Positions 30,049 through 48,652 of a stretch of 64,000 bases of DNA are shown one piece after another. The notes beneath the pieces are model-generated. The model did not search any database, had not been told where the DNA came from, and saw only the letters and a list, made by a program, of their open reading frames with translations. This DNA comes from Bacillota bacterium (GTDB lineage: Bacteria > Bacillota > Limnochordia > Limnochordales > ZCTH02-B6). The DNA lies in contig JACDOI010000006.1 of assembly GCA_017656145.1 (NCBI GenBank), positions 26,031 to 90,030 on the forward strand, read 5' to 3'. Made by a program: the position numbers and the translations under genes. Each line of letters opens with the position of its first letter. Position 1 is the first letter of the stretch.

Positions 30049-31461
30049 TCAGCCGGCAACGGGTTCCGCGGGCGGGCGGACAAGCCGCGACAGCAGCGAC
30101 CGGGCGGACGGCAGTTCTTCCAAGCGCTGAACGGCCTGCCAGACGTCCTCGGCAGCAGAGGGATCAAGCACTCCCTGCGCGCCTTCGGTGAACTTCTCCA
30201 TCTGCTCTTCCGGCGACAGCGGCCGTTCGGGGTAACCCCGGGCGATCTGAGCGTCCCGGGTCAGGACGGTGCCGTCGGTCAGGCGAATGCGGACGACGGT
30301 GTGCATCCGGTCGTATCCCCGGGCATCGATATCCGGCGTGTTGTACACCCTTACCCGTTCCTTCATGAACCGCCGCACATTGGGGTCGCGGACCGTTTCG
30401 TCCGTGTATTCCCGGATTCCCGCCCGGCCGAACAAGGCGATGAGGGTGACGCCGTACTGCAGGCTGAACTTGGCCTCCAGCTCATTTTCGGGTTCGGTGT
30501 AGCGCAGCGCGGCGACGATGTTGGAAGCCGCTTCCACGTCGATGCGCTCGATTTGCTCCGGCTTCACCTGATGCTCCCGCAGGAGATCCCGCACCGCGTC
30601 CATGGTCGGATGGCCCAGCGACCCGCACGGGTACGGCTTGATGGAGATGCCGGGAGACTGAATCTGCCACGGGCTGGCGAGCCGGGACTCAAGGTATCCC
30701 GCATCGAAACCGCCGCCCATGATTTGGAAGAAACCCCACTGGCTGTCGAAAACGTCCGGCGAGGAGGTGAAACCGCGCTCGGCTAAAAGCGCCGCGACGA
30801 CGCCGTTTTCGGCCGCCCGGCCCGCGTGGAGGGGCTTGGTCATCGTACCGAAGTTCACCCGCAGGCCGGCGCTCATGCTGGCCGCGATGCCCAGGGCGCG
30901 GATGACCTTATCCAAAGAGAGATCGAGGAGCTTGCTGGCAGCCGCCACCGCGCCCAGCGCTCCGAGGGTGCCGGTGGAATGAAACCCCCGCCGGTAATGC
31001 TCCGGATTGATGGCTTCGGCCAGCTTGCATTCGACCTCGACCCCGATGTTGTAGGCCGCAAGCAGATCCCGGCCCGACCGGTCCCGGGCCTCGGCCACGG
31101 CCAAGGCTGCTGCCAAGACCGGCGTCGTGGGGTGGACGAGGAGGCCCGTCACCCGGTCGGGAAGCGAGGCGATCTGGGTGTCGTCGTAGTCGTCGGCATG
31201 GCCGGCCACACCGTTGGCCAGTGCCGCCAGCTGAGCCGGGGCCCGCAGCCCGGTCCCCAGGACGGACGCCTCCGGCCGTCCTCCGCAAGCGGCCACGAAG
31301 TCCCGCACCATGCGGGAGCAATCTTGTTTGGCGCCGCATAAGGCCACCCCCAGACCGTCGTAGAAAAACGCCCGGGAGCCTTCGATGACGTCCCTGGGGA
31401 TATGCTCGAAGTTTGTGTCGACGATAAACTCGGCAACCTTCTTGGTGATGGGATTGTCCAT
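30049..31461 (-). CDS. MmgE/PrpD family protein
   Basis: A 470-residue member of the 2-methylcitrate dehydratase / cis-aconitate decarboxylase superfamily. Conserved stretches are FFYDGLGVALCGAK, NGVAGHADDYDDTQ, GFHSTGTLGALGAVAAASKLL, MTKPLHAGRAAENGVVAALLA and KPYPCGSLGHPTMDAVRDL. Members handle branched tricarboxylates or related acids, including the enzyme that makes itaconate. Last gene of the leftward operon; its stop is just before a bidirectional terminator. The substrate cannot be read from sequence. Confidence 0.87.
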   Translation of the reverse strand: MDNPITKKVAEFIVDTNFEHIPRDVIEGSRAFFYDGLGVALCGAKQDCSRMVRDFVAACGGRPEASVLGTGLRAPAQLAALANGVAGHADDYDDTQIASLPDRVTGLLVHPTTPVLAAALAVAEARDRSGRDLLAAYNIGVEVECKLAEAINPEHYRRGFHSTGTLGALGAVAAASKLLDLSLDKVIRALGIAASMSAGLRVNFGTMTKPLHAGRAAENGVVAALLAERGFTSSPDVFDSQWGFFQIMGGGFDAGYLESRLASPWQIQSPGISIKPYPCGSLGHPTMDAVRDLLREHQVKPEQIERIDVEAASNIVAALRYTEPENELEAKFSLQYGVTLIALFGRAGIREYTDETVRDPNVRRFMKERVRVYNTPDIDARGYDRMHTVVRIRLTDGTVLTRDAQIARGYPERPLSPEEQMEKFTEGAQGVLDPSAAEDVWQAVQRLEELPSARSLLSRLVRPPAEPVAG

Positions 31462-31550
31462 CGCTTCATGTCTCCTCTCGGCGATGCTTTTTGCGGTCTT
31501 TCGCTCCCGACAGGACGCCCGCCGGGATGCCGGCGGCTAGCCCGCATCCG

Positions 31551-32342
31551 CTAAACGATCGCGCGCACCAGGCCGCCGTCGACGGTGATGGACTGGCCCG
31601 TGATGTAGCTGGCGTGGCGGGAGCATAGAAATACTGCCATGGCGGCGACCTCCTCGGGCCGCCCGAAACGGCCCAGCGGAATGGCCTGGGCGAATTCGCG
31701 GATGACGTCCTCGGGCTCTACCCCCCGGGCGGCCGCCATCTGGCGGGCCCGCTCCTCCCAAAGCCTCGTCAGGGTTCGCCCGGGCAGGACGGAGTTGACC
31801 AGAATGCCGTGCGCGGCGTACTCGTTGGCCAGGCTGCGGGTGAGGGCCAGCAATCCGGCCTTGTGGACGTTGGAGACGATCTGGTGCTCATGGGGCTGCT
31901 TGGCCGACGCGGCTCCCACGATGACGACCCGGGCGCCCTCGGCCTTCTTTAGCTGGGGCAGAAACGTGCGGACGGTCCTCACTGCCGACAACACGTTGAA
32001 CTCATAATTGTCCAGCCAGTCTTGATCCGTCAGATCTTCGAAGGGAACCCGGCGGCTGCCGCCGACGGAAAAGATGAGGCAGTTCAAGGCTGGAACTCGT
32101 TGGCGGACCCACGCCGCGAGGCGTTCCACATCATCGGCCTTGGTGACATCGGCCGCGCAGTAGGGCACTTGCCTCCCGGACTCGGCCTCCAGCCGGGCGG
32201 ACACCTCTGCCAGCCTGTCGTTGTTGCGGGAGCACAACAACACGTTGGCCCCCTCGTTCAGCAACATGGCGGCGGCGGAAAGGCCGATGCCCGAGCTTCC
32301 GCCGACGACCAGGGCGTACTTGCCGTCTAAACCCAGCTCCAT
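31551..32342 (-). CDS. Atypical short-chain dehydrogenase/reductase lacking the catalytic Tyr
   Basis: A 263-residue Rossmann protein with the cofactor loop VVGGSSGIGLSAAAML and the C-terminal motif VNSVLPGRTLT and ITGQSITVDGG. The catalytic Ser region is VGAAS but the YxxxK motif reads SNVHK, so Tyr is replaced by Ser157 while Lys161 stays. This pattern belongs to a 3-oxoacyl-ACP-reductase-like SDR subgroup with an imperfect catalytic tetrad, so its activity is uncertain. Second to last gene of the leftward operon (51 bases after the amidohydrolase, 89 before MmgE/PrpD). Confidence 0.85.
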   Translation of the reverse strand: MELGLDGKYALVVGGSSGIGLSAAAMLLNEGANVLLCSRNNDRLAEVSARLEAESGRQVPYCAADVTKADDVERLAAWVRQRVPALNCLIFSVGGSRRVPFEDLTDQDWLDNYEFNVLSAVRTVRTFLPQLKKAEGARVVIVGAASAKQPHEHQIVSNVHKAGLLALTRSLANEYAAHGILVNSVLPGRTLTRLWEERARQMAAARGVEPEDVIREFAQAIPLGRFGRPEEVAAMAVFLCSRHASYITGQSITVDGGLVRAIV

Positions 32343-32393
32343 CGCGTCGCACCCTCCTTGTGGGGGTTTGGGGCGCCCAACCCGGCGGTTGCG

Positions 32394-33233
32394 TCAGGCG
32401 AGCCGGGTAACGAGGCCGTAAACCTCGGGACGCCGGTCCCGAAAGATGAAGCGCCGGCGCCGGGCGGCTTCGATGGCTCCCAAGTCGACCTCGGCCAACA
32501 GGATGCCCTCATCGAATTCCAGGGAGGCGATGATCTCGCCCCCAGGAGCCACCGCGACGCTGTTGCCGGCAAACTCATGGTGCTCCTCGTCGGTGCGGCC
32601 GGTGAGACCGACGCCTACGACGAACAAGCCGTTTTCATACGCCCGGACCCGGCAGATGGCCCGCCACAGGCTGGCCAAATTCCGCGGGCAACCGGTCGGC
32701 AGGGCGATGAGTTCGGCGCCCTGCAGCGCGAGGCTGCGGCTCCCTTCGGGGAAATCCCGATCGTAGCAAATCTGAATCGCGATCCGTCCAAGCGGCGTGG
32801 AAAAGACCGGGAATTCATATCCCGGACGAAAGTAAAACTTTTCCCACCCGGTCAAGGACCACGGGATGTGCACTTTTCGGTAGCAGCCGAGGACCTGGCC
32901 GCTGGAGCCGATGAGGGCCGCGCTGTTGTAGTACACGCCGCGGTCGCCCTTTTCGACGAAGGGAGCGATGATGAACACGTTCAGTTGCCGGGCCAGCGTC
33001 CCCAAGCGCTCCAAGGTCGGACTGGCGCCGACGGGCTCCGCCAAGTCCCAAAAGCCCGGGTCGACATGGCCGGTGTGGGAGAAGTACCCGGTGTTGAACA
33101 TTTCGGGCAAGACCATCAGCCGGGCGCCTTGCGAGGCCGCCTCCTCGATCATGGCGCACGCTTTGTCCACATTCGCTTGTTTGTCCCCGATCCGGCATGA
33201 CATCTGAATGCCGGCCACGATGAACCCGCTCAC
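32394..33233 (-). CDS. Nitrilase-superfamily carbon-nitrogen hydrolase
   Basis: Amidohydrolase of 279 residues from GTG 33233; this start overlaps the upstream isochorismatase gene by 4 bases and has GAGGAG ahead, whereas the track start adds 44 unsupported residues. The triad is Glu44 (VLPEMFN), Lys120 (CYRKVHIP) and Cys156 (QICYDRDFPE). The family includes N-carbamoyl amino acid, N-carbamoylputrescine and omega-amidases; which applies is not determinable. Coupled translation with another C-N hydrolase suggests consecutive release of ammonia from one compound. Confidence 0.88.
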   Translation of the reverse strand: MSGFIVAGIQMSCRIGDKQANVDKACAMIEEAASQGARLMVLPEMFNTGYFSHTGHVDPGFWDLAEPVGASPTLERLGTLARQLNVFIIAPFVEKGDRGVYYNSAALIGSSGQVLGCYRKVHIPWSLTGWEKFYFRPGYEFPVFSTPLGRIAIQICYDRDFPEGSRSLALQGAELIALPTGCPRNLASLWRAICRVRAYENGLFVVGVGLTGRTDEEHHEFAGNSVAVAPGGEIIASLEFDEGILLAEVDLGAIEAARRRRFIFRDRRPEVYGLVTRLA

Positions 33234-33910
33234 CTGACTGTCCACTCCTCTTCCAGTTGCTCTGGCCCGTTGCTCCAGGCGCGGATGATGTCGGCGGAAT
33301 CGCATACGTGCCCGAAGCGGCGCCGGACGTTCTCGAGAGTCGCCTGGCGCAACGTTTCGCTCCATGAAGCCGTGCAGTCTTGCGGCAAAACCACGTAGTA
33401 CTCCAGCTCGAAGGCATGCCGCAGCGTCGTTTCGACGCAGACGTTGGTAGACACGCCGGTGATGACGGTAGTCTTGATGCCGTTGCTGCGGAGGATGAGG
33501 TCAAGATTGGTTCCGGTGAAACCACTGTAGCGGTGCTTGTAAACGACGACTTCGCCCTCCGCGGGAGCCAGGTCGTCGACAAACTGGATGCCCTCCGTAC
33601 CTTCCATGGCCACCCGTTCGGACGAGTATGTCGATCGGCGCCTTTGAGCAAGCCACGGCCCAGAGTCGCTGAGATGACCGCGCAGCGTGAGAAAACCGAC
33701 GTGAATGACGAGGACGCCGTGCCGGCGCGCGGCTTCCAGCAGCCGCTTGAGGCACGGGATGATGGACTGGGCCGGTCCCAGGTCCCGCCCGGCTTCCCAG
33801 CATTGAAACCCTTCCATGCAGAAGTCCTTCTGCATGTCTACGAGTATCAAAGCCGTATGCTCAGGACGGACCACGTCTTCCAGGTTCAGCAACATCTGAG
33901 GTTCGCGCAC
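33230..33910 (-). CDS. Isochorismatase-family cysteine hydrolase
   Basis: A 226-residue hydrolase with the Asp25-Lys125-Cys158 triad in LVDMQKDF, VYKHRYSGF and STNVCVETT. Most non-ribosomal members are amidases such as nicotinamidase, N-carbamoylsarcosine amidase, ureidoacrylate or maleamate amidohydrolase. GTG start follows GGGGG-rich sequence. It sits after tctA (27 bases) and overlaps the nitrilase-type gene, forming a two-hydrolase module between a carboxylate transporter and the SDR/PrpD genes. A maleamate- or carbamoyl-type substrate is possible but unproven. Confidence 0.87.
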   Translation of the reverse strand: MREPQMLLNLEDVVRPEHTALILVDMQKDFCMEGFQCWEAGRDLGPAQSIIPCLKRLLEAARRHGVLVIHVGFLTLRGHLSDSGPWLAQRRRSTYSSERVAMEGTEGIQFVDDLAPAEGEVVVYKHRYSGFTGTNLDLILRSNGIKTTVITGVSTNVCVETTLRHAFELEYYVVLPQDCTASWSETLRQATLENVRRRFGHVCDSADIIRAWSNGPEQLEEEWTVR

Positions 33911-33937
33911 GCGTATCCCCCCTTACGTGCCGCAAGC

Positions 33938-35458
33938 TCATTGGCCGGCGCCGGTTTTCAAGGTTCGGCTGTTCCGGTAGCGCAAAACCGGCGGTCCCAC
34001 AAGGGACAGGGCGGTGAGCAGCATCAAAATGATGGATAGCTCGCTCTGAAAGAACGTCCCATATCCTCCGATGCGGATGGCCCGCAGGAAATTGCTTTCA
34101 ATCATGGGGCCGAGAATGATGGCCAGCAACAGCGCGGGAACGGGGTAGTTGTACACCTTGCAGAGAGCTCCAAAGAGGCCGAAGACGATCATCAAGATGA
34201 TGTCGAACGCGAAATACCGCCACGCATACGCGCCGAGGAACAGAAGCACCGCCACGATAGGCACGAGAAAGCGGGTCGGCACAAAGGCGACGGCTTGAAA
34301 ATGGCGGGCCAAGGGAAGCCCGAACAGCATAATGAGCAAGCTGGCCAAAACGAGGGAGAACAAAATGGTGTACGCTTCCGTCTGGAAGTTGATGAAAAAC
34401 CGCGGTCCGGGCCGCACGCCGTGGAGGAAGAGCGCCGCCAGCATGAGCGTTGTGGAAGAGCTGCCCGGCAGGCCTAGCGTCAACGTAGGAACGAGGGCTC
34501 CGCACGCCACGGCATTGTTGGCCGAATCGGTAGCCACCAGACCGTCCGGATGGCCCTTGCCGAACTTCTCGGGCGTCTTCGACCACTGTTTCGCTTGGGA
34601 GTAGGCTACAAAAGATCCGATGGCGGCGCCGGCGCCCGGGACAATTCCGATCATGGTGCCGATAACACTCGAGCGTAACAGGGTCGTCTTGTAGCGCAAG
34701 GCTTGTTTCATTCCGTCGACGACCTCGCGAAAGGAGCGGGCGCCGGGCGCCGCGGTTTGCGCGATTCGCGTTCGCTTCATCAAAAACAAAATCTCGGAGA
34801 AACCGAAGAGCCCGATCAATACCGGTATCATCGGAAGCCCGTCATACAGCTCCAAGATGCCAAACGTGCCCCGCGGAAATCCCTGCATGCTGTCCATGCC
34901 GACAAGCGAGATGAGCAGGCCAAAACAGGTGATCAGCAACCCCTTGAGCGTATCGTCGCCCGTCAACGAGCTGACGACGCTCAGCCCGAACACGCCGAGC
35001 ATGAACATCTCCGCTGGCCCAAACTGCAAGGCGAAGGTGCCCAGGACCGGGGCAATGGCGATGGAGGTGAAGGCCCCAAATAGGGCGCCTACGGTAGACG
35101 CGGCGAACGACACCCCCAGTGCGAACGCGGCCCGGCCCTGCCTGGCCAGCGGGTACCCTTCAAGGCAAGTGGCCGACGTGCCCGGTGTGCCCGGAATGTT
35201 GATCAGAATGGCGGGTATGGAGCCGGCCGCCTGAGCCGAACAGTACAGGGCGGTCATGGCCACGATGGCGTCGGTCGGGTCCAGGAGCAACGTGAACGGG
35301 AGCAGGATAGCCATCAGGTTGGCGTCGTTGAACCCTGGGATGGCGCCGACGACGAATCCCATGCCGAATCCCGCGAGGAGCCAGAACAACGTGCCCAGAT
35401 CGAACAGGTTGTGAAGACCGCCCAATATCGCTTGTGCGTCGTACAACTCACCATGCAC
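33938..35458 (-). CDS. tctA: Tripartite tricarboxylate transporter large permease TctA
   Basis: Twelve-segment permease of the TTT family, 506 residues. The family signatures GAIPGFNDANLMAILLPFT, ILINIPGTPGTSATCLEGYPLARQG and VPGAGAAIGSFVAYSQAK are clear; NNAVACGALVPTLTLGLPGSSSTTLML follows. It moves carboxylates bound by TctC using an ion gradient. Order tctC-tctB-tctA in the direction of transcription is the classical one. Confidence 0.93.
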   Translation of the reverse strand: MHGELYDAQAILGGLHNLFDLGTLFWLLAGFGMGFVVGAIPGFNDANLMAILLPFTLLLDPTDAIVAMTALYCSAQAAGSIPAILINIPGTPGTSATCLEGYPLARQGRAAFALGVSFAASTVGALFGAFTSIAIAPVLGTFALQFGPAEMFMLGVFGLSVVSSLTGDDTLKGLLITCFGLLISLVGMDSMQGFPRGTFGILELYDGLPMIPVLIGLFGFSEILFLMKRTRIAQTAAPGARSFREVVDGMKQALRYKTTLLRSSVIGTMIGIVPGAGAAIGSFVAYSQAKQWSKTPEKFGKGHPDGLVATDSANNAVACGALVPTLTLGLPGSSSTTLMLAALFLHGVRPGPRFFINFQTEAYTILFSLVLASLLIMLFGLPLARHFQAVAFVPTRFLVPIVAVLLFLGAYAWRYFAFDIILMIVFGLFGALCKVYNYPVPALLLAIILGPMIESNFLRAIRIGGYGTFFQSELSIILMLLTALSLVGPPVLRYRNSRTLKTGAGQ

Positions 35459-35520
35459 CCCCTTGCAGACCCAAGCTCCTCGCTGAGGATCGTTGGTCCT
35501 GCATCAGCTGACGGCTGCGA

Positions 35521-36015
35521 TTACAGCCACGGAACGGTCGGGACGTTCAACTGCACCAACTCGGTGACTGCGTACAAGGCGACCGCGGTGAGGGTCCCAT
35601 AGACGATCGCCTGGGTCCAACGTAACCCGGAGTTGGGGAACGCCAGCCACAGAAACAGGAGATTGGCTATGTGAAAACCGAGGCGCTGGAACGCCGCGTA
35701 ATAGCCGAGGCAAAGCGCGACCAGACCGATTTCTCGCCGGTGCCGCTTCACCCACGCCGCGGCTTGTTCGGGCAACGAGCCCGAACGGGCGCCCGGAGCA
35801 GCTTGCGGCGTACGTCGATCGGCGGCGCGATCCGGCGCTTTCCTGCTTTCCCGCCAAACGACTGCCAGGCAGAGCGCTGCCAACAAGACGATCACGCCCA
35901 GCGGCACCAGCACGACGGTGCGGGCTTGCCCGCGCACTTGAAGCCAATACGCCATCGCCACGCCGAGGGTGAGGGCGGGTACGATCAACTCGTGCCAGCG
36001 ACGACCCATGACCAC
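35521..36015 (-). CDS. tctB: Tripartite tricarboxylate transporter small subunit TctB
   Basis: A 164-residue membrane protein with four hydrophobic segments (for example LIVPALTLGVAMAYWLQ, LVPLGVIVLLAALCLAVVW, IGLVALCLGYYAAFQRLGFHIANLLFLWLAF). Poorly conserved by sequence as is normal for TctB, but position between tctC and tctA decides it. A charged loop (RESRKAPDRAADRR) separates the two halves. GTG or ATG two codons on are both possible starts. Confidence 0.85.
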   Translation of the reverse strand: MVMGRRWHELIVPALTLGVAMAYWLQVRGQARTVVLVPLGVIVLLAALCLAVVWRESRKAPDRAADRRTPQAAPGARSGSLPEQAAAWVKRHRREIGLVALCLGYYAAFQRLGFHIANLLFLWLAFPNSGLRWTQAIVYGTLTAVALYAVTELVQLNVPTVPWL

Positions 36016-36108
36016 CGACCTCCAACCTCGAAACTCCGCTCAAGCCGGCAACGGGCCGTGGGGGGCCCCGCCCGGCCCGGTCGCCGCCCCTGCCGTCCAT
36101 GCCACGGA

Positions 36109-37143
36109 TCACATCATTTCGGCCAGGTCCCGCTCCATCGCGGGCCGGAACGCGGCGAGCAGCCTCAAGTAGTCCCTCACGAACTGCTCGCAGCTTTCTG
36201 GGCTGCGGTATTTGACGAACGGGGTCAGGTCTTGCTGATCGGCCAAGCGGCGGAACTCAGGCGTTTCCATGGCGTCGCGAAGCGTGTTCACCAGTTTTTC
36301 GTACCGGTCGGGATAGCGGTCCCTCACGGCGCCGTGCACTTGAACCGCGTACGGTTCGACCAACGAGGGAAGATTCACGCCCAAAAGCTCATTGGCCGGT
36401 TCGGGTTGCCACAGGTGGGGGGCAGGGTTGCTATCTGTGAAAATGCCGATGGCCTTCGTCAGTTCGAATACGTGCAAGGCCGACCAGTAAGGCGCCATGC
36501 AGGCGTCCACGTGACCGCCGGCCACCGCGTTGCGGGCCTCGGAGCCGCCCTGGAACGGCACGACCTTCAAATTGGCGCCGGTGAGCTCCCGGAGGACGAC
36601 CGTGGCGGCGTGCGCGGCAGACATGGGGCTTGACACGCTTACGGTCAGCGGCCGGTCGGAACTCATGCTATCGTCGATGAACTGGTCGATGCGATCCCAC
36701 TTCGCGTCCTTGTGTACCAGCAACACGTTGGGATCGTCGAAGTACGCGCCCACCCAGGCGATAGAGTCCAGGGAAAAGCCGGGATTTTGAAGCGCAAAGA
36801 TCCAGGCGGTGTGGGGAATCGGCGTGAAGTGCACCGCGTGGCCGTCGGGGCGGGGATCGCTCATCATCCGCCGCAGCGCGACCAACGTCCCCGCTCCGGG
36901 AGCGTAGACGTAATTGAACGGGCGCGGTGCTCCCAAGGTCATCTCCCAGGCGGGTGTCACCACCCGGGCCGACCGGTCGGTCCCGCCTCCGGGGGAAAAG
37001 CCGATGATCACGTCCATCTGCCGGCTTGGAAACGGTTGACTCTGGGCGAACACCTTCGAAACAAAGCCGGGAACCAAAAGAGCACCGGCCGAAGCGCCGC
37101 CCAATCTCAAAAACTCCCGCCGATCAAACCTTCTCCTCTCCAC
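36109..37143 (-). CDS. tctC: Tripartite tricarboxylate transporter substrate-binding protein TctC (Tat signal)
   Basis: Extracytoplasmic binding protein of 344 residues. The N-terminus DRREFLRLGGASAGALLVPGFVSKVFAQ has a twin-arginine motif RRxFLRLGG, pointing to Tat export, although most Gram-positive TctC proteins are Sec lipoproteins. The family body follows: MDVIIGFSPGGGTDRSARVV, PGAGTLVALRRMMSDPRPDGHAVHFT and AGGHVDACMAPYWS. First gene of the leftward operon, with GGAGGGACC before the ATG. Probably binds a di- or tricarboxylate. Confidence 0.9.
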   Translation of the reverse strand: MERRRFDRREFLRLGGASAGALLVPGFVSKVFAQSQPFPSRQMDVIIGFSPGGGTDRSARVVTPAWEMTLGAPRPFNYVYAPGAGTLVALRRMMSDPRPDGHAVHFTPIPHTAWIFALQNPGFSLDSIAWVGAYFDDPNVLLVHKDAKWDRIDQFIDDSMSSDRPLTVSVSSPMSAAHAATVVLRELTGANLKVVPFQGGSEARNAVAGGHVDACMAPYWSALHVFELTKAIGIFTDSNPAPHLWQPEPANELLGVNLPSLVEPYAVQVHGAVRDRYPDRYEKLVNTLRDAMETPEFRRLADQQDLTPFVKYRSPESCEQFVRDYLRLLAAFRPAMERDLAEMM

Positions 37144-37542
37144 TGCGGTCCCTCCTTGAAGCTCTATGTTTTAGGCAGCTCCATGCGATGAAGCCCCCAG
37201 CCGCACACGTGAAGCAGATGCCGGCCGACCCCCGTTCCCGAACGGTCGAAGGCGTTCCCCACTACCCGCGGTCCAGCCACGGACAAGTTTTGCGCCGATG
37301 GTGTGCCGACGCGGTATACCGAAATCATTAGACGCTGTGAGGATGTCTCCTTCGCCGAAGTCAAAAAAATTCCAAGCCGGGAACTGGCTGGACTTCAGAT
37401 GGATGCAGCGGCATTGCGCGTCGGGGCGAACTTGATCCCGAAAAAGAGGAACCGTCGATTGGAAAGAGAAAATTGTGGATCCTCGCATCCGCAGCGCCCC
37501 TTGATGGGAAACGAGGGGCGCCCGCGCAATAGGGGGATCGGG
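37144..37542. promoter_or_regulatory. Divergent control region between tctC and the CaiB gene
   Basis: This 399-base gap is less GC-rich than its surroundings and holds no convincing gene; the track ORF 37303 starts here but its N-terminus is not CaiB-like. It contains the palindrome CGGTATACCG (37313-37322) within GCGGTATACCGAAATC. TTGCGC lies 19 bases before TATACC, too far for a good promoter. Both operons must be controlled from here, so a bound regulator could coordinate them. Function is inferred from location. Confidence 0.5.
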
Positions 37543-38793: not shown

Positions 38794-38805
38794 GGAGGGT
38801 TGGCA

Positions 38806-39987
38806 TTGTTCGAGCTTTCGGCAGAGGATCTCAATCTTTCGGCCGAGCAAAAGGAAGTTCTCGCTATGATACGGGAGTTCGCCCGGCGGGAGGTGCGCCC
38901 CGCGGTTAAAGAATACGAGCCCGGCGATCGCTACCCGCACCCCCTTGTGGACCGCATGAAAGAGCTGGGCTTGTTCGGCCTCACCATCCCGGAAGAGTAC
39001 GGCGGCGCGGGGCTCGATCATGTGACGTACGCCCTCGTGTTTGAGGAACTGTCGGCGGCGTGGATGAGCATCGCAGGCGTCCTGGGGACCCATTCCATTA
39101 TGGCCTACGTCATCGCTCGGTATGGCACCGAGGAGCAGAAGCAGCGCTTTTTGCCGCGCATGGCCGCGGGCGAATTGCGGGGCGGGCTTGCGCTGACCGA
39201 GCCGGAAGCCGGCTCCGACGTCGCGAGCATCCGGACCCGGGCCCGCCGAGAGGGCGATGCGTACGTGCTCAATGGCGTGAAGACGTTCATCACCAACTCC
39301 CGGCACGGCACGGGGCTTCTGGTGCTGGCCAAAACCGATCCCGGCGCGCCCAAGCCTTCCCGCGGGATGTCGGCGTTCGTGTTCGAGCATTCCGGTGAGG
39401 TGCCGGGCTTCACCGTTCGACGGGACATCCCCAAGCTCGGGTACAAAGGCCTTGACACGTGCGAGATCGCGTTCGAGGACGTACGGGTGCCCGCGGAAAA
39501 CCTGGTGGGCGGGGTCGAAGGAGAAGGGTTCAAGCAGGTGATGAGCGGCCTGGAGGTCGGCCGCATCAATGTGGCGGCCCGCGCGGTGGGCGTGGCCCGC
39601 GCGGCGCTGGACGACGCCCTGCGCTATTCCCAGCAGCGGGTAGCGTTCGGCAAGCCCATCGGTCGCCACCAGGCCATTCAGCAGCTGCTTGCAGACGCCT
39701 ACGCCCAGATCGAAGCCGCCCGCCAGCTGGTACTGTTCGCGGCCCGAAAGAAAGACCGGGGCGAGCGGGCGGACTTGGAAGCCGGGGCCGCGAAGCTCTT
39801 CGCCAGCGAAATGTGCGGCAGGGTGACCTTGGACATGATGCGGGTGCTCGGCGGTTACGGCTACACCACCGACTTTGATCTGGAGCGATACTACCGGGAC
39901 GCGCCGCTGATGATCATCGGCGAGGGGACCAACGAAATCCAGCGGATGGTCATCGCCAACCGCCTGCTGGAAAAGTACGCCCTGTAG
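38806..39987 (+). CDS. Acyl-CoA dehydrogenase
   Basis: FAD-dependent alpha,beta-desaturase of an acyl-CoA. TTG 38806 fits the GAGGAGGG ribosome site better than TTG 38800. The 393 residues show the FAD/substrate region LALTEPEAGSDVASI, a flavin motif KTFITNSRHGTGLLVLAK, and the C-terminal catalytic Glu373 in IGEGTNEIQRM. In C5-acid pathways methylsuccinyl-CoA dehydrogenase makes mesaconyl-CoA; whether this enzyme does so is not visible. Placed directly after the CoA-transferase. Confidence 0.93.
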   Translation: MFELSAEDLNLSAEQKEVLAMIREFARREVRPAVKEYEPGDRYPHPLVDRMKELGLFGLTIPEEYGGAGLDHVTYALVFEELSAAWMSIAGVLGTHSIMAYVIARYGTEEQKQRFLPRMAAGELRGGLALTEPEAGSDVASIRTRARREGDAYVLNGVKTFITNSRHGTGLLVLAKTDPGAPKPSRGMSAFVFEHSGEVPGFTVRRDIPKLGYKGLDTCEIAFEDVRVPAENLVGGVEGEGFKQVMSGLEVGRINVAARAVGVARAALDDALRYSQQRVAFGKPIGRHQAIQQLLADAYAQIEAARQLVLFAARKKDRGERADLEAGAAKLFASEMCGRVTLDMMRVLGGYGYTTDFDLERYYRDAPLMIIGEGTNEIQRMVIANRLLEKYAL

Positions 39988-40003
39988 CCAGGAGGGAACA
40001 GCC

Positions 40004-40909
40004 GTGGGAGACGCCCAGCCGCTCAAGCCAAAAGAACCGTCCGGCCGCGCGAGCGCCCCGCTGTCGCCCCGCTTGGTCTGGGTGGACGACATCCGCCGGA
40101 CGGTGGCCAGGCTTTTGGTGGAGGCCAATGTGGCCATCGGGGAAGACGTCTTGAACGCCTTGCGGCAGGCCGCCGAGGAGGAAGAGTCGGAGCTTGGTCG
40201 CGATATCCTTCGGCAGCTTGTGGCCAACTACGATTTGGCCCGCCGCGAACGGGTGCCTGCCTGCCAGGACACCGGCTTGACCATTGTGTTTCTGGAAATC
40301 GGCCAGGACGTCCACCTGGTCGGCGGGGACTTGCGGGCGGCGGTGGACGCGGGAATTCGGGACGGGACCCGGGACGGCTTTTTGCGCAACTCCGTTGTGG
40401 GCGATCCCCTCGGGCGGGAGAACACCGGGTACAACGGGCCCGGGGTGCTCCACGTCGACATCGTGCCGGGCGACCGGGTGCATGTGACGGTGGCGTGCAA
40501 AGGGTTCGGCAGCGAAAACAAGAGCCGTCTCAAGATGCTGACGCCCGCCGACGGCGTAGCCGGGATCCGGGACTTTGTGGTGGAAACGGTGGACCGGGCC
40601 GGCGCCCAGGCGTGCCCTCCCCTCATCGTGGGAGTCGGCATCGGCGGCAGCTTCGAGTTGTGCGCCCGGCTGGCCAAGCAGGCGGTCATTCGCCCTCTCA
40701 ACCGGCGCCACCCCCGGGAGGACATCCGGCGGCTGGAGGATGAGCTGCTTGAGGAGATCAACCGGCTGGGCATCGGGCCCCAGGGAATGGGCGGCATCAG
40801 GACGGCTCTTGCCGTCAACATCGAGGTGTACCCGACCCACATCGCCGGTTTGCCCGTGGCGGTGAACATCGGTTGTCATTCCAACCGCCACATGGACGCG
40901 TGGATCTAG
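40004..40909 (+). CDS. Class I fumarase-type hydratase, alpha subunit
   Basis: Iron-sulfur hydro-lyase subunit (TtdA/FumA N-terminal type), 301 residues. Three Cys suitable for the [4Fe-4S] cluster are Cys87 (PACQDTG), Cys165 (VACKGFGSENKS) and Cys291 (NIGCHSNRH). Related enzymes interconvert fumarate/malate, tartrate/oxaloacetate or mesaconate/citramalate. GTG start with CAGGAGGG ahead. The first about 25 residues are a low-complexity extension. With the beta gene 71 bases downstream it forms a two-subunit hydratase. Confidence 0.9.
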   Translation: MGDAQPLKPKEPSGRASAPLSPRLVWVDDIRRTVARLLVEANVAIGEDVLNALRQAAEEEESELGRDILRQLVANYDLARRERVPACQDTGLTIVFLEIGQDVHLVGGDLRAAVDAGIRDGTRDGFLRNSVVGDPLGRENTGYNGPGVLHVDIVPGDRVHVTVACKGFGSENKSRLKMLTPADGVAGIRDFVVETVDRAGAQACPPLIVGVGIGGSFELCARLAKQAVIRPLNRRHPREDIRRLEDELLEEINRLGIGPQGMGGIRTALAVNIEVYPTHIAGLPVAVNIGCHSNRHMDAWI

Positions 40910-40980
40910 GCGGAAGGGCAACAGCAACAACCGAACCGCTTGGCGGACCGGGCGGACCCGAAAGGATTGGGTGACCGGCG

Positions 40981-41541
40981 GTGGCGGTGTTCTTAACGAT
41001 CGATCCGGTGTTGCCCGACGACGCAGCCGAAATGCTCAAGGCCGGTGACCAAGTGATGATCACCGGTGAACTGTTGACGGCCCGGGACGCGGCCTGCGGC
41101 CGCCTGGCGGCGGCCCTCAAGGCCGGCGACCCGTTGCCCGTAGATTTGGCGGGTCGGGTCATCTACGCGGTCGGGCCGACGCCGGCCAAGCCCGGGCAAG
41201 TGATCGGATCGGCGGGTCCGACGACGGCCGCAAGGCTCCTGCCGTACCTGGAGCCGCTGCTAAAGGCGGGGGTCAAGGCCCTGATTGGAAAAGGCGACTG
41301 GCCTCCGGACGCAGCAACGCTTTTCGCCCGGTATGGCGCCGTGTACCTCGCGGCCGTGGGCGGAGCGGGGGCCCTGATCGCCCGAACCGTGCGCGCAGCG
41401 GAGGTGATCGCTTACCCGGACCTGGGACCCGAGGCGGTCCACCGCCTCTCGGTGGAGAGGTTTCCGGCCTTTGTGGCCGTGGACGCTCGCGGGGCGGACT
41501 TGTACCGGCAAGCCCGGGACCGGTGGCGGCGGGGCCGGTGA
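40981..41541 (+). CDS. Class I fumarase-type hydratase, beta subunit
   Basis: A 186-residue protein of the FumA C-terminal / TtdB type. GDQVMITGELLTARDAACGRL, GRVIYAVGPTPAKPGQVIGSAGPTTAARL and ALIGKGDWPPDA match the family's substrate-binding half. GTG start. The second half, with YLAAVGGAGALIA, completes the active site with the alpha subunit. In this cluster a mesaconase-type reaction (mesaconate to citramalate) is a reasonable guess. Confidence 0.9.
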   Translation: MAVFLTIDPVLPDDAAEMLKAGDQVMITGELLTARDAACGRLAAALKAGDPLPVDLAGRVIYAVGPTPAKPGQVIGSAGPTTAARLLPYLEPLLKAGVKALIGKGDWPPDAATLFARYGAVYLAAVGGAGALIARTVRAAEVIAYPDLGPEAVHRLSVERFPAFVAVDARGADLYRQARDRWRRGR

Positions 41542-41560
41542 CGGGAAAGGAGGTCGGTGT

Positions 41561-42478
41561 GTGTACCGGAGCTACCTGTTCAGCCCGGCCAGCGACATGC
41601 GCAAAATGGAAAAGAGCCTCTGGAGCGGGGCTGACGCGGTCATCCTCGACCTGGAAGATGCCGTCGCGCCGGATCAGAAGGACGCAGCCCGGGACAACCT
41701 GGCCCGGTTTCTGGACCGCCTCCCGCAGGGCGACGGCCGGCCAGCCGTATTCGTGCGGGTCAACGGCGCCGGCACCCCGTGGTTCGAGCGGGACCTCAAA
41801 GCCGTCTACCGGCCCCAGCTGGCCGGGTACATGATTCCCAAGGTCGAGTCCCGCGAAGATCTCGAATTGGCCGACGCCGCGTTGACCCAGTCGGCCGGCC
41901 GGACGGCGGAGTTTGAAATCGTGCCGTTCGTCGAGAGCGCCCAGGCGCTCTTACGGCTGCCGGACATCGTGCAAGGGCAGCAGCGGGTGCGCCGCGCCGT
42001 GTTGGGCGGGGAAGATCTGGCGACGGATGCGGGCTTGCAGCTTTCGCCCGGGGGACTCGCACTGGTGGTGCCACGGGCGCTTATGGCCATCTTCAGCCGG
42101 GCGGCGGGCCTTGAGCCGCCTGTCGATACGGTGTATGCGGCGTTTCGGGACGAAGACGGGCTGCGGGCGGAGCTTGGCCGGGCCAAAGAACTCGGTTGCT
42201 TTGGAAAGCTCGCCATCCACCCGGCCCAGGTGCCGGTCATCAATGAAGCGTTCACCCCGGCGGCGCAGGAGGTGGCCTGGGCCCGCCGGGTGCTGGACGC
42301 GTTCGGGGAAAGCCTGGCTTTAGGGCGAGGCGTGGGCAGCGCCCATGGGGCCATGGTGGAACGGCCTATCGCCGAGCGGGCGCGGCGGCTTTTGGCGCTG
42401 GCCCAGGCGGTGGAGGAGCGGCAGAGAGAAACGCCTGCGGCCGGGGAGCCGGATCGGCCGGCAAAGGAGGGCGGATGA
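41561..42478 (+). CDS. HpcH/HpaI-CitE family CoA lyase (citramalyl-/malyl-CoA lyase like)
   Basis: A TIM-barrel C-C lyase of 305 residues. The GTG at 41561 follows AAAGGAGGT; the track start is 30 codons upstream. RSYLFSPASDMRKMEKS, GADAVILDLEDAVAPDQK (metal-binding Glu/Asp), VFVRVN, MIPKVES and LGGEDLATDAG are typical of CitE-like lyases. Such enzymes split 3-hydroxyacyl-CoA thioesters, for example citramalyl-CoA to acetyl-CoA and pyruvate. ATGA overlap with the next gene. Confidence 0.9.
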   Translation: MYRSYLFSPASDMRKMEKSLWSGADAVILDLEDAVAPDQKDAARDNLARFLDRLPQGDGRPAVFVRVNGAGTPWFERDLKAVYRPQLAGYMIPKVESREDLELADAALTQSAGRTAEFEIVPFVESAQALLRLPDIVQGQQRVRRAVLGGEDLATDAGLQLSPGGLALVVPRALMAIFSRAAGLEPPVDTVYAAFRDEDGLRAELGRAKELGCFGKLAIHPAQVPVINEAFTPAAQEVAWARRVLDAFGESLALGRGVGSAHGAMVERPIAERARRLLALAQAVEERQRETPAAGEPDRPAKEGG

Positions 42479-42969
42479 TGACCCAAGGGAGCGGACCGGA
42501 CGAGCGCGGGACGGCCGAGAGCTTGGTGCCCGAGGAAGCGTGGGAACTGGTGGGACAGCAGATCGGGCCCGGCCGGCCTGTGACCGTTCACGCCAACGAA
42601 GTGGAGCGGTTTTGCCGGGTAGTCGGCGAGGACAACCCGGTGTTCTTCGACGAGGAAGCTGGGCGACGAAGCGTCTACGGCGGGCGGCCCATGCCCCCGG
42701 CCTTCGCCCTGACCCGGTTCGACTCGGGCGATGAGCGCAGCTTCACGGTGCGGCTTCCGGCTGCCCGCCGGCTACGGGGCGAGGACGAGCTGGTCATCCT
42801 TCGCCCTATCCGGGTGGGGGAGCGGATCCGGGCCCGGACGCGGCTTGCCGGCATCGATGAGAAGGCCGGCCGGTCGGGTCCGATGGTGTTGCTCCGATTC
42901 GAAACTGAGTACTTGCTGCCCGGCGACGAGGTGGCGATGATCGTGCGGACGACCATCGTCCGCCGGTGA
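42475..42969 (+). CDS. MaoC-type hotdog protein, N-terminal-domain-like (FAS1-type dehydratase)
   Basis: A 164-residue hotdog-fold protein resembling the N-terminal half of two-domain hydratase-2 enzymes. The region VVGEDNPVFFDEEAGRRS corresponds to the hydratase motif but lacks the catalytic His (Phe in its place), as in non-catalytic N-terminal domains. It is immediately followed by a complete catalytic partner. Together they could be the split form of a mesaconyl- or itaconyl-CoA hydratase. ATG overlaps the lyase stop. Confidence 0.82.
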   Translation: MMTQGSGPDERGTAESLVPEEAWELVGQQIGPGRPVTVHANEVERFCRVVGEDNPVFFDEEAGRRSVYGGRPMPPAFALTRFDSGDERSFTVRLPAARRLRGEDELVILRPIRVGERIRARTRLAGIDEKAGRSGPMVLLRFETEYLLPGDEVAMIVRTTIVRR

Positions 42970-43011
42970 TCGGGCTTTTGGGCAGCGCCGGCCGGCGAGG
43001 GAGGGAGCGCC

Positions 43012-43440
43012 TTGGACTGGCGGCCAGGGTCGGAATTGCCGCCGCTTACGGTCGGGCCTATTACGACCGAGATGCTCGTGCGCTGGGCCGCTGCGGCGGA
43101 GGACTACAACCCTATCCATTATGATCAAGCCTACGCCCGAAAGCAGGGACTGCCTGATGTTGTCATGCACGGCCCGTTCAAGCTGGCCCTGTTTTGCCGA
43201 CTGCTTCACAGCCAGCTGGGTCCCAGGGGCTACATCCGGCGCATCAAGGTGCGCTACACCGGCTTGGACGTTCCGGGCGACGTGCTGGAGTTCCGAGGGA
43301 CGGTGGAGCGGGTGGAAGAGGGGGAAGGGGAGCGTCTGGCCGCGGTTCGCCTTGTGGCCCAAAACGCACGGGGCGTCGTCACCGTCCAGGGGGAAGCGGA
43401 GGTGGCAGTACGGGAACAGCCGGCGGATCAAGCGTCGTAG
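43012..43440 (+). CDS. MaoC-type hydratase, catalytic hotdog domain
   Basis: A 142-residue enoyl-CoA hydratase 2-like protein. Its motif AEDYNPIHYDQAYARKQGLPDVVMHG keeps the catalytic Asp31 and His36. TTG start with GAGGGAGGGAG about 10 bases upstream. Pairs with the preceding catalytically degenerate hotdog gene, so the two likely form a heterodimer hydrating an unsaturated dicarboxylyl-CoA before lyase cleavage. The substrate is inferred from context only. Confidence 0.88.
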   Translation: MDWRPGSELPPLTVGPITTEMLVRWAAAAEDYNPIHYDQAYARKQGLPDVVMHGPFKLALFCRLLHSQLGPRGYIRRIKVRYTGLDVPGDVLEFRGTVERVEEGEGERLAAVRLVAQNARGVVTVQGEAEVAVREQPADQAS

Positions 43441-43603
43441 GCGGCACAGCCGGCGCCCGGCGGCCCAGCGATTCCGGAGATAGTTTTCAGAGAGCGGGTG
43501 TGATCAGCGTCTTGGCAGGATTTGTGTTTTTGAGAGAGTAATTCATCAAGTATTCCGTTTACTTTTTTTCACACCAAATCTTTGGCAAGAGGAGGGTGTT
43601 GTC

Positions 43604-44638
43604 GTGTTTCGGCTGAATCGATGGGTGGCCGTGGTGGCGGCCGCCGTGCTTGTGACGGCATGGGTATGGGCCGCGCCTGGTGTGGCGCTGGCGCAGCGGA
43701 TTCCGTTGCGCTGGGCGACGGCCAACGTCGGTTCGTACGGTTATTCTGTAGCCAGCATCATGGTCGAGATCCTGAACCGGGAACTGCCGTCCCAGTACGT
43801 TGTGACCGTTCACCCGTACCCGTCCACCACGGCTGCGATGCGGGCGGCTATGAACGGCGAAGTCGAGATTTCCTATACCGCCGACGTCGGCATGACGCAG
43901 CTGTACGACCGCATCGGGCCGTATGAAGGTTTCAGGCCTACTGTGGGAGAGCTCGTCCACACATTGTACGTCTACCCGATGGAATCGTTCATGACCGTAC
44001 CCGCGGACCGGGCGGATCAATACCATTCTTGGGGGGACTTCAGCGGCCAGCCGGTGTTCTTTACCCCCGCTGGATTTATGAACTGGCTCAATTTCCAGCG
44101 GATCTTCGCCGCGCTAGGCTATGAGTTCAATCACGTAGAAATCGACTCGGCGCTGTTGGCCGACGCGCTGCGAGCCGGGTCAATCGTGGGCTCCGGAGCG
44201 TACACGACGGCGGGCGCGTCCTTGCCCACCTTCTGGAAAGAAGCGGAGTTGCGGATCGATGTCCAGGTCATCAACCCCAGCCCGGAGGAAATGGAAAAGC
44301 TTCGGGCCGCCAGCTTGAACCCGCGGCGGGTCGACCCCAGCCGGGCGTTTACCCAGGATGTGGGTGTAACGGAGATCTGGGGTGTGCCTATCCTGTTCGG
44401 CTACAACATGCGGGCGGACGCGGATCCCGACCTGGTCTACAGAATCCTCACGGCGTTTGAGAGCCACGTCGCGGAGCTTCCCGACCTCGATCCGGGTTTT
44501 GCGCCGCTGGCTGAGGACTTCGTCGGTCTGCAGGTGGCTGGCATCAGTGCCAATCCCCATATCCCGGTCCACCCCGGGCTGGCGAGGTTCTTGAGGGAGC
44601 GCGGAGCTTGGGACGACAGCTGGACGGTTGCGGAGTAA
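43604..44638 (+). CDS. TAXI-family TRAP transporter substrate-binding protein
   Basis: An extracytoplasmic receptor of 344 residues with a signal peptide (WVAVVAAAVLVTAWVWAAPGVALAQ). The family body is visible: PLRWATANVGSYGYSVASIMVEILNREL, VHPYPSTTAAMRAAMNGEVEISYTADVGMTQLY, and WGVPILFGYNMRADADPDLVYRIL. TAXI receptors bind C4/C5 dicarboxylates or glutamate-like ligands. GTG start with AGAGGAGGGTG. The 163-base gap before it is unusually A/T-rich for this region (includes CTTTTTTTCAC) and could hold a promoter; I see no clear consensus pair. Confidence 0.88.
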   Translation: MFRLNRWVAVVAAAVLVTAWVWAAPGVALAQRIPLRWATANVGSYGYSVASIMVEILNRELPSQYVVTVHPYPSTTAAMRAAMNGEVEISYTADVGMTQLYDRIGPYEGFRPTVGELVHTLYVYPMESFMTVPADRADQYHSWGDFSGQPVFFTPAGFMNWLNFQRIFAALGYEFNHVEIDSALLADALRAGSIVGSGAYTTAGASLPTFWKEAELRIDVQVINPSPEEMEKLRAASLNPRRVDPSRAFTQDVGVTEIWGVPILFGYNMRADADPDLVYRILTAFESHVAELPDLDPGFAPLAEDFVGLQVAGISANPHIPVHPGLARFLRERGAWDDSWTVAE

Positions 44639-44668
44639 TGTAGGGGACGGGGAGGCGGGTGAAAACAA

Positions 44669-44707
44669 GGGCCGGAGCCGCTGCGGTGAGCGGCGCCGCT
44701 CCGGCCC
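44669..44707 (+). terminator. Intergenic hairpin between TRAP receptor and permease
   Basis: GGGCCGGAGC pairs with GCTCCGGCCC around a GC-rich loop of 19 bases. No T-run follows. Placed between binding-protein and permease genes, it may stabilise the upstream mRNA and lower permease expression rather than terminate fully. Confidence 0.5.
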
Positions 44708-44791
44708 CTAGCCCGGCCGTCGGCCGTCAACGGGCAAGATAGTCCGGCCGCCGCCCGGCGGATCCGGACGAGTGAGGAGATAGGACCGCGG

Positions 44792-46744
44792 ATGGAACAG
44801 CTGAAACGGGTAGTGAACGCCGGCAATCTCCTTCTGGGATTTTCGCTGTACTTTCTTGTGCAATTGCTCAACTACTTCTTCACCGGCGCCGGCGGACCGC
44901 AGCGGCTGGCGACGCGGCTTGTGCCTGTCGCGCTCATCTTGTACGTTCTCAAAGCGTACCGGGAAAACGCTTTGTATCCCCGGTTGGGACCGGCGTGGAA
45001 CCGGTTCATCGCCGCGGTGTACGTCGCGGCCGCGATGATTCCCTTGTTGTACCTGGAAGTCGAATACGAACAACTGTTCATCTACCGCTCAGGGGCGTAC
45101 AACACGACCGACCTTTTGGTCGGCGCGGTGCTGTTGCTGCTTGTGATGGAAATTTCCCGCAAGGCCCACCCGGTGTTGTTCGGCGTCAACATCGTGATGA
45201 TGTTGTACACGCTGTACGGCAACTATAGTCCCATCGATTTCTTCTGGCATCCGGGCGCGTCGCTGACCCGGGTCGTCACGGCCGCCACGGTGGAGCTCTC
45301 CACGGGAATATACGGGAAATACGCCCAACTGGGCTTGACCCTGGTGGCCGCGTTCCTCCTCATGGCCGCCATCGCCGGCGGGTTCGACGCGCAAGGTTCC
45401 CTGTTGCGGGTGGTCCGGGCGCTGGCGGGGCGGCGGACGCACCAGGTTCCCCAGACGGCGGTCATCAGCTCGATGGCGGTGGGCATGGTGAGCGGCAGCG
45501 GGGCGGCCAACACCGCTGTCACCGGCAGCGTCACCATCCCCCTCATGAAACAGTACGGTATCCCGGCGGCATTTGCCGGGGCTGTCGAAACCGCTGCCTC
45601 CATGGGCGGGCTGATCATGCCGCCGCTGATGGCCGCGGCCGCGTTCATCATGGCGGACTTCCTCGGGGTGACCTACTGGGACGTCGTAGTGCGGGGCTTT
45701 GCCGTCGGCTTGGTGTATTACTTGGTGGTAGCCTTTGCCGTCTATCTGATCTCCATGCGCACCATCGAACCGGGAAAGGTGAACCCGCCGCCGGTTCCGA
45801 ATTACGACAAGCTCAAGACCGCCGTGTTCCTCGGATGCATCGTTCTTTTGGTCGTCTTCCTGGGCGTGCTCAACTACAGCCCGATGCGGGCGGCCTTGTA
45901 CTCCGCGTCGCTTTTGCTCGGCGTCCTCATCGGCATTCATTTGTACTACAGATCTGTGGGAAACCCGGATTTCGCCCAGGAGCGGATTGGACTCCGCTTG
46001 GCAAAAGCGCTGGAGACGTACGCGGACCTGACCTCCTATATCGTCATCCTCATGTCGGTGCTGGGCATCATGATCGGGCTGTTCACCATTACCGGATTCA
46101 TCCTCCGGATGGGCCAGCTCATGCTCCATCTGGGCGAGTGGCACGTCGCCGCCATCGTGTTCATGGCGTGGATCTTCGGCTGGCTGGCGGGCACCGGGCT
46201 GCCGCCGACGGCCACCTACATCATCGTGGCCGTCATCGTCGTGCCGCCTATGAGCCAGTACGGCATCAACCCGTGGATTGCCCACTTCTTCGCCTTCCTC
46301 GTATCCGTATGGGGCGAGTTGACGCCGCCCACATCGCTGACGGCCGCGGTGGCCGCCAGCATCTCCGGCGCGTCGTTCCTGAGAACGACGTATGAGGCGC
46401 TCCGGATCTGCGCGCCGCTGTTTGTCATGACGTTTTCCATCTTTGTGCGCCGGGACATGGTTGTGTCTCCGGGTATCGGCCAGTTTCTGGACACGCTGAT
46501 CGTGGCTGTGTCGAGCCTGGCCATTACCTTCGCGACGTTTGGCCGCTTTTCCCGGGAACGGCTCGCGGACGTGGCCGGGCGCGGGCTGCTTTTGGCCTTG
46601 GCCTTTGCCGGAAGCTTCATCCCCGAACGGGGGTACGCGGCCGCCGCGGCGGTGCTGGCCTCCGTCCTCCTCCTTAAAGGCGTGGTGGGATTTCGTACCA
46701 TCGGTCCGCCCTGGGGGTCCCAGCCCATCCGGCCGGCGGTATAA
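44792..46744 (+). CDS. TRAP transporter permease, fused 4TM/12TM (TAXI type)
   Basis: A 650-residue membrane protein in which the small (DctQ-like) and large (DctM-like) subunits are fused. The N-terminal 120 residues hold about four segments; the large domain shows GSGAANTAVTGSVTIPLMKQYG, ETAASMGGLIMPPLMAAAAFIMA and AGTGLPPTATYIIVAVIVVPP, typical of the TRAP fused permease family. It follows the TAXI receptor and ends the rightward operon at a terminator. Together they take up an organic anion. Confidence 0.92.
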   Translation: MEQLKRVVNAGNLLLGFSLYFLVQLLNYFFTGAGGPQRLATRLVPVALILYVLKAYRENALYPRLGPAWNRFIAAVYVAAAMIPLLYLEVEYEQLFIYRSGAYNTTDLLVGAVLLLLVMEISRKAHPVLFGVNIVMMLYTLYGNYSPIDFFWHPGASLTRVVTAATVELSTGIYGKYAQLGLTLVAAFLLMAAIAGGFDAQGSLLRVVRALAGRRTHQVPQTAVISSMAVGMVSGSGAANTAVTGSVTIPLMKQYGIPAAFAGAVETAASMGGLIMPPLMAAAAFIMADFLGVTYWDVVVRGFAVGLVYYLVVAFAVYLISMRTIEPGKVNPPPVPNYDKLKTAVFLGCIVLLVVFLGVLNYSPMRAALYSASLLLGVLIGIHLYYRSVGNPDFAQERIGLRLAKALETYADLTSYIVILMSVLGIMIGLFTITGFILRMGQLMLHLGEWHVAAIVFMAWIFGWLAGTGLPPTATYIIVAVIVVPPMSQYGINPWIAHFFAFLVSVWGELTPPTSLTAAVAASISGASFLRTTYEALRICAPLFVMTFSIFVRRDMVVSPGIGQFLDTLIVAVSSLAITFATFGRFSRERLADVAGRGLLLALAFAGSFIPERGYAAAAAVLASVLLLKGVVGFRTIGPPWGSQPIRPAV

Positions 46745-48649: not shown

Positions 48650-48652
48650 ACG

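Follow-up and report, generated by a model that had tools for sequence, protein, structure and literature searches.

A plus-strand operon and a divergent minus-strand operon lie side by side in a 64,000-nucleotide stretch of a Bacillota genome (contig JACDOI010000006.1; "the window" below), and they raise the question of which compound the encoded enzymes degrade and whether both operons serve one pathway. A first-pass annotation had read them together as a branched C5-dicarboxylate locus. We favor, with moderate confidence, the view that the plus-strand operon at 37504-46744 is complete in itself and serves the catabolism of a dicarboxylic acid with a C4 backbone, the likeliest being a methyl-branched C5 acid (methylsuccinate, mesaconate, (S)-citramalate or possibly itaconate). 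Gene content and, more strongly, association support the C5 reading of this operon, while the MmgE/PrpD gene of the divergent operon drops out of it. The gene content, conserved order, catalytic motifs and associations described below are direct observations.

Gene content and conservation of the operon

The plus-strand operon comprises nine genes, CaiB, AcdH, FumA, FumB, CitE, MaoN, MaoC, TAXI and a fused TRAP permease (Table 1). Up to MaoC they are separated by small gaps or overlap by 4 bases, and gaps of about 150 bp lie ahead of both transporter genes, whose products form a TAXI-TRAP transporter by domain models. Every gene named in the first-pass annotation is present with Pfam support, although what it called the MaoC hydratase gene is in fact two genes, MaoN and MaoC.

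We compared the locus with two metagenome-assembled genomes (MAGs) of the same family, Bacillota ZC4RG06 (loci L007/L016) and Firmicutes ZCTH02-B6 (L008/L017). In ZC4RG06 the order is purR, a GntR gene, CaiB-AcdH-FumA-FumB-CitE-MaoN-MaoC-TAXI-DctQM and glmU; ZCTH02-B6 has the GntR gene and the identical nine-gene series, up to the contig end. The nine-gene order is therefore held in three genomes of the family, the window included, with the same purR-glmU site demonstrable in one relative. Operon proteins of the relatives are 70-87% identical to those of the window (window CaiB is 73% identical to its homologs in genomes G072 and G071). Because the order recurs in two further family genomes, the gene set is not a product of chance. 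None of the MmgE, short-chain dehydrogenase/reductase (SDR), carbon-nitrogen hydrolase, TctABC and DASS symporter genes occurs at the operon loci of the two relatives, and since the genes of the divergent operon are missing there, the pathway unit is the plus-strand operon alone, with its own importer; the divergent operon forms a module of its own that was either inserted or retained in the window genome alone.

A CitE profile search of 399 Bacillota genomes gave no additional operon copy at the 14 loci inspected, and a contig scan (19 loci) found the operon in the two known relatives only. Genomes outside Bacillota were sampled mainly via plasmids (72,556 plasmid records), so outside the phylum the operon could be more frequent than this. 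From their names we take ZC4RG06 and ZCTH02-B6 to be zoo-compost MAGs, and by analogy with these relatives the host is presumably a thermophile.

Associations with C5-dicarboxylate genes

For reference we used a Pseudomonas aeruginosa plasmid record with the published gene content of the itaconate-methylsuccinate cluster (MaoC, AcdH, VOC, MmgE, CaiB, CitE, TRAP; cf. PMC12290011) and a Comamonadaceae cluster, whose Mcd, Ict and Msi are 78%, 70% and 67% identical to those of P. aeruginosa and whose hydratase has a match to the itaconyl-CoA hydratase structure 8khg (E 2e-67). In P. aeruginosa, a conjugative plasmid record of 847 kb (L096) contains a copy of the region from phhA-phhR to the itaconate cluster.

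The best single hint to the substrate comes from Thermus thermophilus AA2-2. Its plasmid pAA2-2c carries TAXI-TRAP-TAXI-CitE-GntR opposite FumA-FumB-AcdH-CaiB-MaoC, and two of its proteins are true orthologs of the Pseudomonas enzymes, AcdH of Mcd (63% identity to the P. aeruginosa protein) and CaiB of Ict (56%). The two clusters share FumA (53%), FumB (49%), AcdH, CaiB, MaoC, CitE, TAXI (61%), the fused TRAP permease (45%) and GntR; they differ in gene order, in that the Thermus AcdH and CaiB are the Mcd and Ict orthologs, and in that Thermus has a single MaoC of another lineage. The Thermus cluster is the only match to the window TAXI protein among the plasmid records (E<=1e-15), and besides the window's own genome a single one of the 399 sampled Bacillota genomes matches at E<=1e-40, with 33% identity. 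It is the sharing of so rare a binding protein that suggests a common substrate. Since the Thermus substrate is itself assigned from sequence, the C5 assignment rests on the Ict/Mcd orthology in Thermus together with the shared transporter and fumarase.

Actinobacterial clusters point the same way. A FadE3-like AcdH (52-56% identical to that of the window) adjoins Ict-Ich-Ccl orthologs in Streptomyces NBC_00564 (Ict 60%, Ich 48% and Ccl 46% to the Comamonadaceae cluster) and in Mycolicibacterium madagascariense (52%, 43% and 43%), and no Mcd was seen in either operon. AcdH of the window lineage also lies beside Ict in S. nigrescens, and the Streptomyces NBC_00564 operon likewise has a split MaoN/MaoC (window MaoC is 37% identical to the Streptomyces MaoC). 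In addition, fumarase genes adjoin CaiB/CitE in Aminobacter and CaiB/Mcd in Palleronia. The actinobacterial plasmid operons L071:4930-10087 and L089:5100-9158 contain Ict, Ich and Ccl orthologs and a FadE3-like AcdH without Mcd; there the FadE3-like enzyme is a candidate replacement for the methylsuccinyl-CoA dehydrogenase.

Predicted functions of the enzymes

FumA and FumB have the features of a class I two-subunit fumarase/mesaconase: the PF05681 alpha and PF05683 beta domains and the Fe-S cysteines, in the FumA motifs CQDTG, CKGFGSENKS and GCHSNRH. Class I fumarases, including the E. coli and B. xenovorans enzymes, hydrate mesaconate (PMC4682846), and the earlier suggestion that this hydratase adds an entry for mesaconate agrees with that published biochemistry. 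We predict that FumAB is a mesaconase/fumarase. It shares with the heterodimeric class I fumarase/mesaconase of PMC4682846 a two-subunit Fe-S hydratase with cysteine motifs, but it sits among CoA-ester genes rather than beside glutamate mutase/methylaspartate ammonia-lyase. A search for methylaspartate ammonia-lyase gave no match, but its control search was likewise empty, so absence is not shown. Ordinary C4 metabolism, with the fumarase as an enzyme of the tricarboxylic acid (TCA) cycle and CaiB and CitE acting on malate and malyl-CoA, would fit the FumA score above the NCBIfam fumarate hydratase cut-off (Table 1). This explanation is nonetheless highly improbable: the host genome also encodes a distinct class II fumarase-like protein (fumC_II is its best model, with 611 bits, below the cut-off of 664.75), the operon would be redundant with TCA enzymes, and the fumarase genes are flanked by AcdH and CitE in all three family genomes and adjoin Ict/Mcd genes in Thermus.

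CaiB has the motif PGYDxxxQ, whose Asp is the expected catalytic residue, and is a predicted succinyl-CoA:dicarboxylate CoA-transferase. AcdH groups with FadE3 (PDB 4iv6) and its relatives (support 98/96 and 85/96 in two trees) and is a predicted dehydrogenase of methylsuccinyl-CoA or an analogue. It carries the canonical Glu motif GEGTNEIQR, where the Mcd clade has LYQVAPxSTN (three members read). Those Mcd-type dehydrogenases, at L068:7596-8765, L077:8375-9538 and L034:7953-9095, are without the usual EGTxxIQ glutamate, and the catalytic base of Mcd-type methylsuccinyl-CoA dehydrogenases may be located elsewhere.

The window CitE has 8khl and human CLYBL as its closest solved relatives and is a predicted citramalyl-CoA-type lyase. 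Its sequence bears on a different route, in which the C5 acid is degraded through C1 esters (methylsuccinyl-C1-CoA to mesaconyl-C1-CoA to beta-methylmalyl-CoA, whose cleavage gives propionyl-CoA and glyoxylate), a course also taken in the ethylmalonyl-CoA pathway or the methylaspartate cycle. The CitE motif GGED resembles CLYBL and not P. aeruginosa Ccl; the catalytic Glu of AcdH is canonical, which sets it apart from the C4-specific Mcd; CaiB scores 262.6 bits on the haloarchaeal mesaconate CoA-transferase model vs 186-212 for the Ict clade (all far below the cut-off of 700); and two methylmalonyl-CoA-mutase-family genes in the host genome also speak slightly for such a route. We consider it a serious alternative but quite unlikely all the same, as CitE reaches 175.6 bits on the RipC/Ccl model (cut-off 375) and 40 when scored with the model of haloarchaeal malyl-CoA lyase, and the Ict and Ccl neighbors in related clusters indicate C4 esters. 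Malate synthase for glyoxylate uptake was not found in the host genome search, a slight further point against the C1 route.

The window MaoC has the motif EDYNPIH, the D-x-N-P-x-H dyad (D31..NPIH) of (R)-specific hydratases, and MaoN has GEDNPVFF, without the dyad His. By their sequences this suggests a heterodimer in which MaoC is the catalytic R-specific hydratase subunit and MaoN its non-catalytic partner, like HadAB or ChsH1/H2, both of which are among the weak PDB matches of MaoN/MaoC. The D-x-N-P-x-H motif was not found in P. aeruginosa Ich.

We infer from these data each substrate and product, as well as the pairing of MaoN with MaoC, in the following scheme. The TAXI-TRAP importer would take up the acid, and FumAB would interconvert the free acids mesaconate and (S)-citramalate. 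CaiB would move CoA from succinyl-CoA onto the acid; the FadE3-like AcdH would convert methylsuccinyl-CoA to mesaconyl-CoA, passing electrons to electron-transferring flavoprotein, which is present in the host genome. The MaoN/MaoC heterodimer would hydrate mesaconyl-CoA to citramalyl-CoA, which CitE would cleave to acetyl-CoA and pyruvate.

Phylogenetic placement and the choice of substrate

If the operon were simply another copy of the Pseudomonas pathway, its enzymes should group with the characterized ones, as the first-pass annotation proposed to check. They do not: CaiB is not in the Ict group, AcdH not in the Mcd group and MaoC not in the Ich group, and in NCBIfam none of CaiB, AcdH and CitE has a match above cut-off. 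Several facts weigh against a C5 substrate. The Ict clade (nine rows, 100/100) leaves the window CaiB (38% identical to P. aeruginosa Ict) outside, the Mcd clade (six rows, 100/100) does the same with AcdH (33% to Mcd), and AcdH proteins of the window's clade also adjoin MmgE-CaiB-MaoC-CitE clusters of uncharacterized substrate. CitE (40% to P. aeruginosa Ccl) falls outside the Ccl group, although a joint grouping is not rejected in the approximately unbiased (AU) test (p-AU 0.28), and its C-terminal motif contains Glu, whereas that of P. aeruginosa Ccl, CLYBL and the majority of the compared lyases contains Asp. The split hydratase is outside the Ich group, with 34% identity to Ich over 85 aa (MaoC) and 27% over 67 aa and a different active-site motif. 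Moreover, the C5 substrate of the Thermus cluster is itself a prediction, and larger 2-substituted succinates would require identical chemistry.

The Asp of the C-terminal motif is catalytic in CLYBL. The window CitE and its counterparts at L007:5233-6144 and L008:5327-6238 read MVE there and most relatives MVD/MID; a few other CitE-like proteins also have Glu. Constraining the window proteins to group with the reference clades is rejected neither for CaiB with Ict (p-AU 0.16) nor for AcdH with Mcd (p-AU 0.06), so they may still be sisters of those clades.

These placements leave room for a different substrate handled in the same reaction order, another 2-substituted succinate or dicarboxylate such as ethylsuccinate or dimethylsuccinate. 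CaiB, AcdH and MaoC all belong to uncharacterized clades, and clusters encoding a thiolase and an AMP-binding protein can also contain a split MaoN/MaoC hydratase. We regard such a substrate as unlikely, but as the strongest competitor of a C5 acid. The 61% TAXI match comes from a cluster whose CaiB and AcdH are true orthologs of Ict and Mcd, and class I fumarases are enzymes of small dicarboxylates; both argue for the C5 acid.

Because CaiB, AcdH and MaoC/MaoN lie outside the Ict, Mcd and Ich groups, the operon and the Pseudomonas itaconate/methylsuccinate cluster are not orthologous. To judge from these trees, its CaiB, AcdH and MaoC steps are non-orthologous to the Pseudomonas enzymes, and the operon is probably a non-orthologous, independently assembled version of the known methylsuccinate/mesaconate/citramalate pathway. 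A second CaiB-CitE pair in the host genome (L011:9305-11358, G000:C3; L009, L010), conserved in G071 and G067, belongs to a clade that contains neither Ict nor the window pair.

The MmgE/PrpD gene

The first-pass annotation counted MmgE/PrpD in the gene set, and a full version of that reading would make this gene a methylsuccinate isomerase forming one itaconate/methylsuccinate locus with the plus-strand operon. The gene is adjacent and divergent, and the catalytic positions typical of MmgE proteins (His, Tyr and Lys) are in place. As a methylsuccinate isomerase it was nevertheless rejected: it is only 29% identical to P. aeruginosa Msi vs 43-44% to its nearest relatives, which lie beside AbrB-family, isopropylmalate/tartrate-dehydrogenase-like and TctABC genes on alphaproteobacterial plasmids; it has Asp where Msi has Glu; a joint clade with Msi is rejected (p-AU 4e-44); and it is absent from the conserved unit. 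We therefore drop MmgE from the pathway, since its operon is missing in the relatives and it is not an isomerase by sequence, and there is very little chance that the combined locus is correct.

A second MmgE/PrpD gene of the host genome (L095, G000:C68) lies near GntR, TctC and TctA, which suggests that MmgE-Tct is a separate module. Elsewhere in Bacillota, L051 (G404) encodes an MmgE 42% identical to the Comamonadaceae Msi, with the Glu signature ILELDD, together with CitE and AcdH, and may be an isomerase-type methylsuccinate cluster within this phylum.

Comparison with known systems

The C5-dicarboxylate pathway has been described in two convergent forms (PMC12290011). The five-gene itaconate-methylsuccinate cluster of P. 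aeruginosa and C. necator comprises ich-mcd-mmgE-ict-ccl, and P. putida is reported to be without it (PMC12290011). The window operon shares with it the CoA-ester order of class III CoA-transferase, acyl-CoA dehydrogenase, hotdog hydratase and CitE lyase, as well as a TRAP transporter, and differs in its split hydratase, its added class I fumarase, its TAXI rather than DctP-type TRAP and a unit without Msi. The RipABC itaconate cluster of Yersinia pestis has three genes, with enzymes that are non-homologous or only distantly homologous (PMC12290011). Here the CitE-type lyase step is shared, but the window has nine genes, a class III CoA-transferase and a lyase below the RipC cut-off.

Somewhat more tentatively than the C5 assignment itself, at a little under even confidence, we propose that a thermophilic Bacillota lineage has a third, separately assembled C5-dicarboxylate pathway beside the Pseudomonas and Yersinia types, with a FadE3-like methylsuccinyl-CoA dehydrogenase, a heterodimeric MaoN/MaoC, a non-Ict CoA-transferase and a non-Ccl lyase, combined with a mesaconase and a TAXI importer of its own. 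If so, surveys by Ict/Mcd/Ich/Ccl/Msi orthology undercount this metabolism; 96% of methylsuccinate isomerases have been found in Pseudomonadota (PMC12290011). The FadE3-like dehydrogenases of actinobacterial Ict-Ich-Ccl clusters would then be suggested as methylsuccinyl-CoA dehydrogenases, and the operon would be a source of probably heat-stable enzymes and of a candidate C5-dicarboxylate binding protein.

Coordinates and neighboring genes

The host assembly comprises 2.57 Mb in 116 contigs (98.95% complete; GC about 66%). The window purR is of the B. subtilis type (TIGR01743, 339 bits, cut-off 258.7), and genes for a GlmU-like protein, ribose-phosphate pyrophosphokinase and L25 occupy 47252-50502; all of these indicate a Bacillota host. 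The divergent operon encodes MmgE/PrpD, an SDR, a carbon-nitrogen hydrolase and TctA/B/C.

Table 1. Genes of the plus-strand and divergent operons in the window
Product	Position	Strand	Model scores and remarks
CaiB/class III CoA-transferase	37504..38793	+	PF02515 419 bits; start ATG 37504 or TTG 37543
Acyl-CoA dehydrogenase (AcdH), FadE3-like clade	38800..39987	+	PF00441/02770/02771
Class I Fe-S fumarase alpha (FumA)	40004..40909	+	PF05681 360 bits; NF004885 385 bits, cut-off 276
Class I fumarase beta (FumB)	40981..41541	+	PF05683 162 bits; TIGR00723 150.7, cut-off 145.15
CitE-type CoA-ester C-C lyase	41561..42478	+	PF03328 139 bits; GTG start 41561 downstream of GGAAAGGAGG
MaoN, FAS1_DH/hotdog subunit	42475..42969	+	PF13452 67 bits
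MaoC hydratase subunit	43012..43440	+	PF01575 58.5 bits
TAXI-family TRAP solute-binding protein	43604..44638	+	PF16868 36.6 bits, cut-off 27; TIGR02122 53.7, below cut-off 84.35
Fused TRAP permease (DctQM)	44792..46744	+	TIGR02123 369 bits, cut-off 320.65
MmgE/PrpD	30049..31461	-	PF03972 230 bits, PF19305
SDR oxidoreductase	31551..32342	-	PF13561 174 bits
Carbon-nitrogen hydrolase	32394..33365	-	PF00795 196 bits
TctA permease	33938..35458	-	PF01970 452 bits
TctB-like small membrane protein	35521..36015	-	Frame corrected from 35504-36112; 61% of residues in set AILMFVWGC; between tctC and tctA
TctC solute-binding protein	36109..37143	-	PF03401 43.6 bits

Two further plasmid clusters, L082 (Salipiger pPABY7) and L083 (Agrobacterium pTiAF3.44), have a conserved set of a fused MaoC, two CaiB, an Ich-like hydratase and a Ccl-like lyase, together with SDR and ABC transporter genes, and in Salipiger a TAXI-TRAP.

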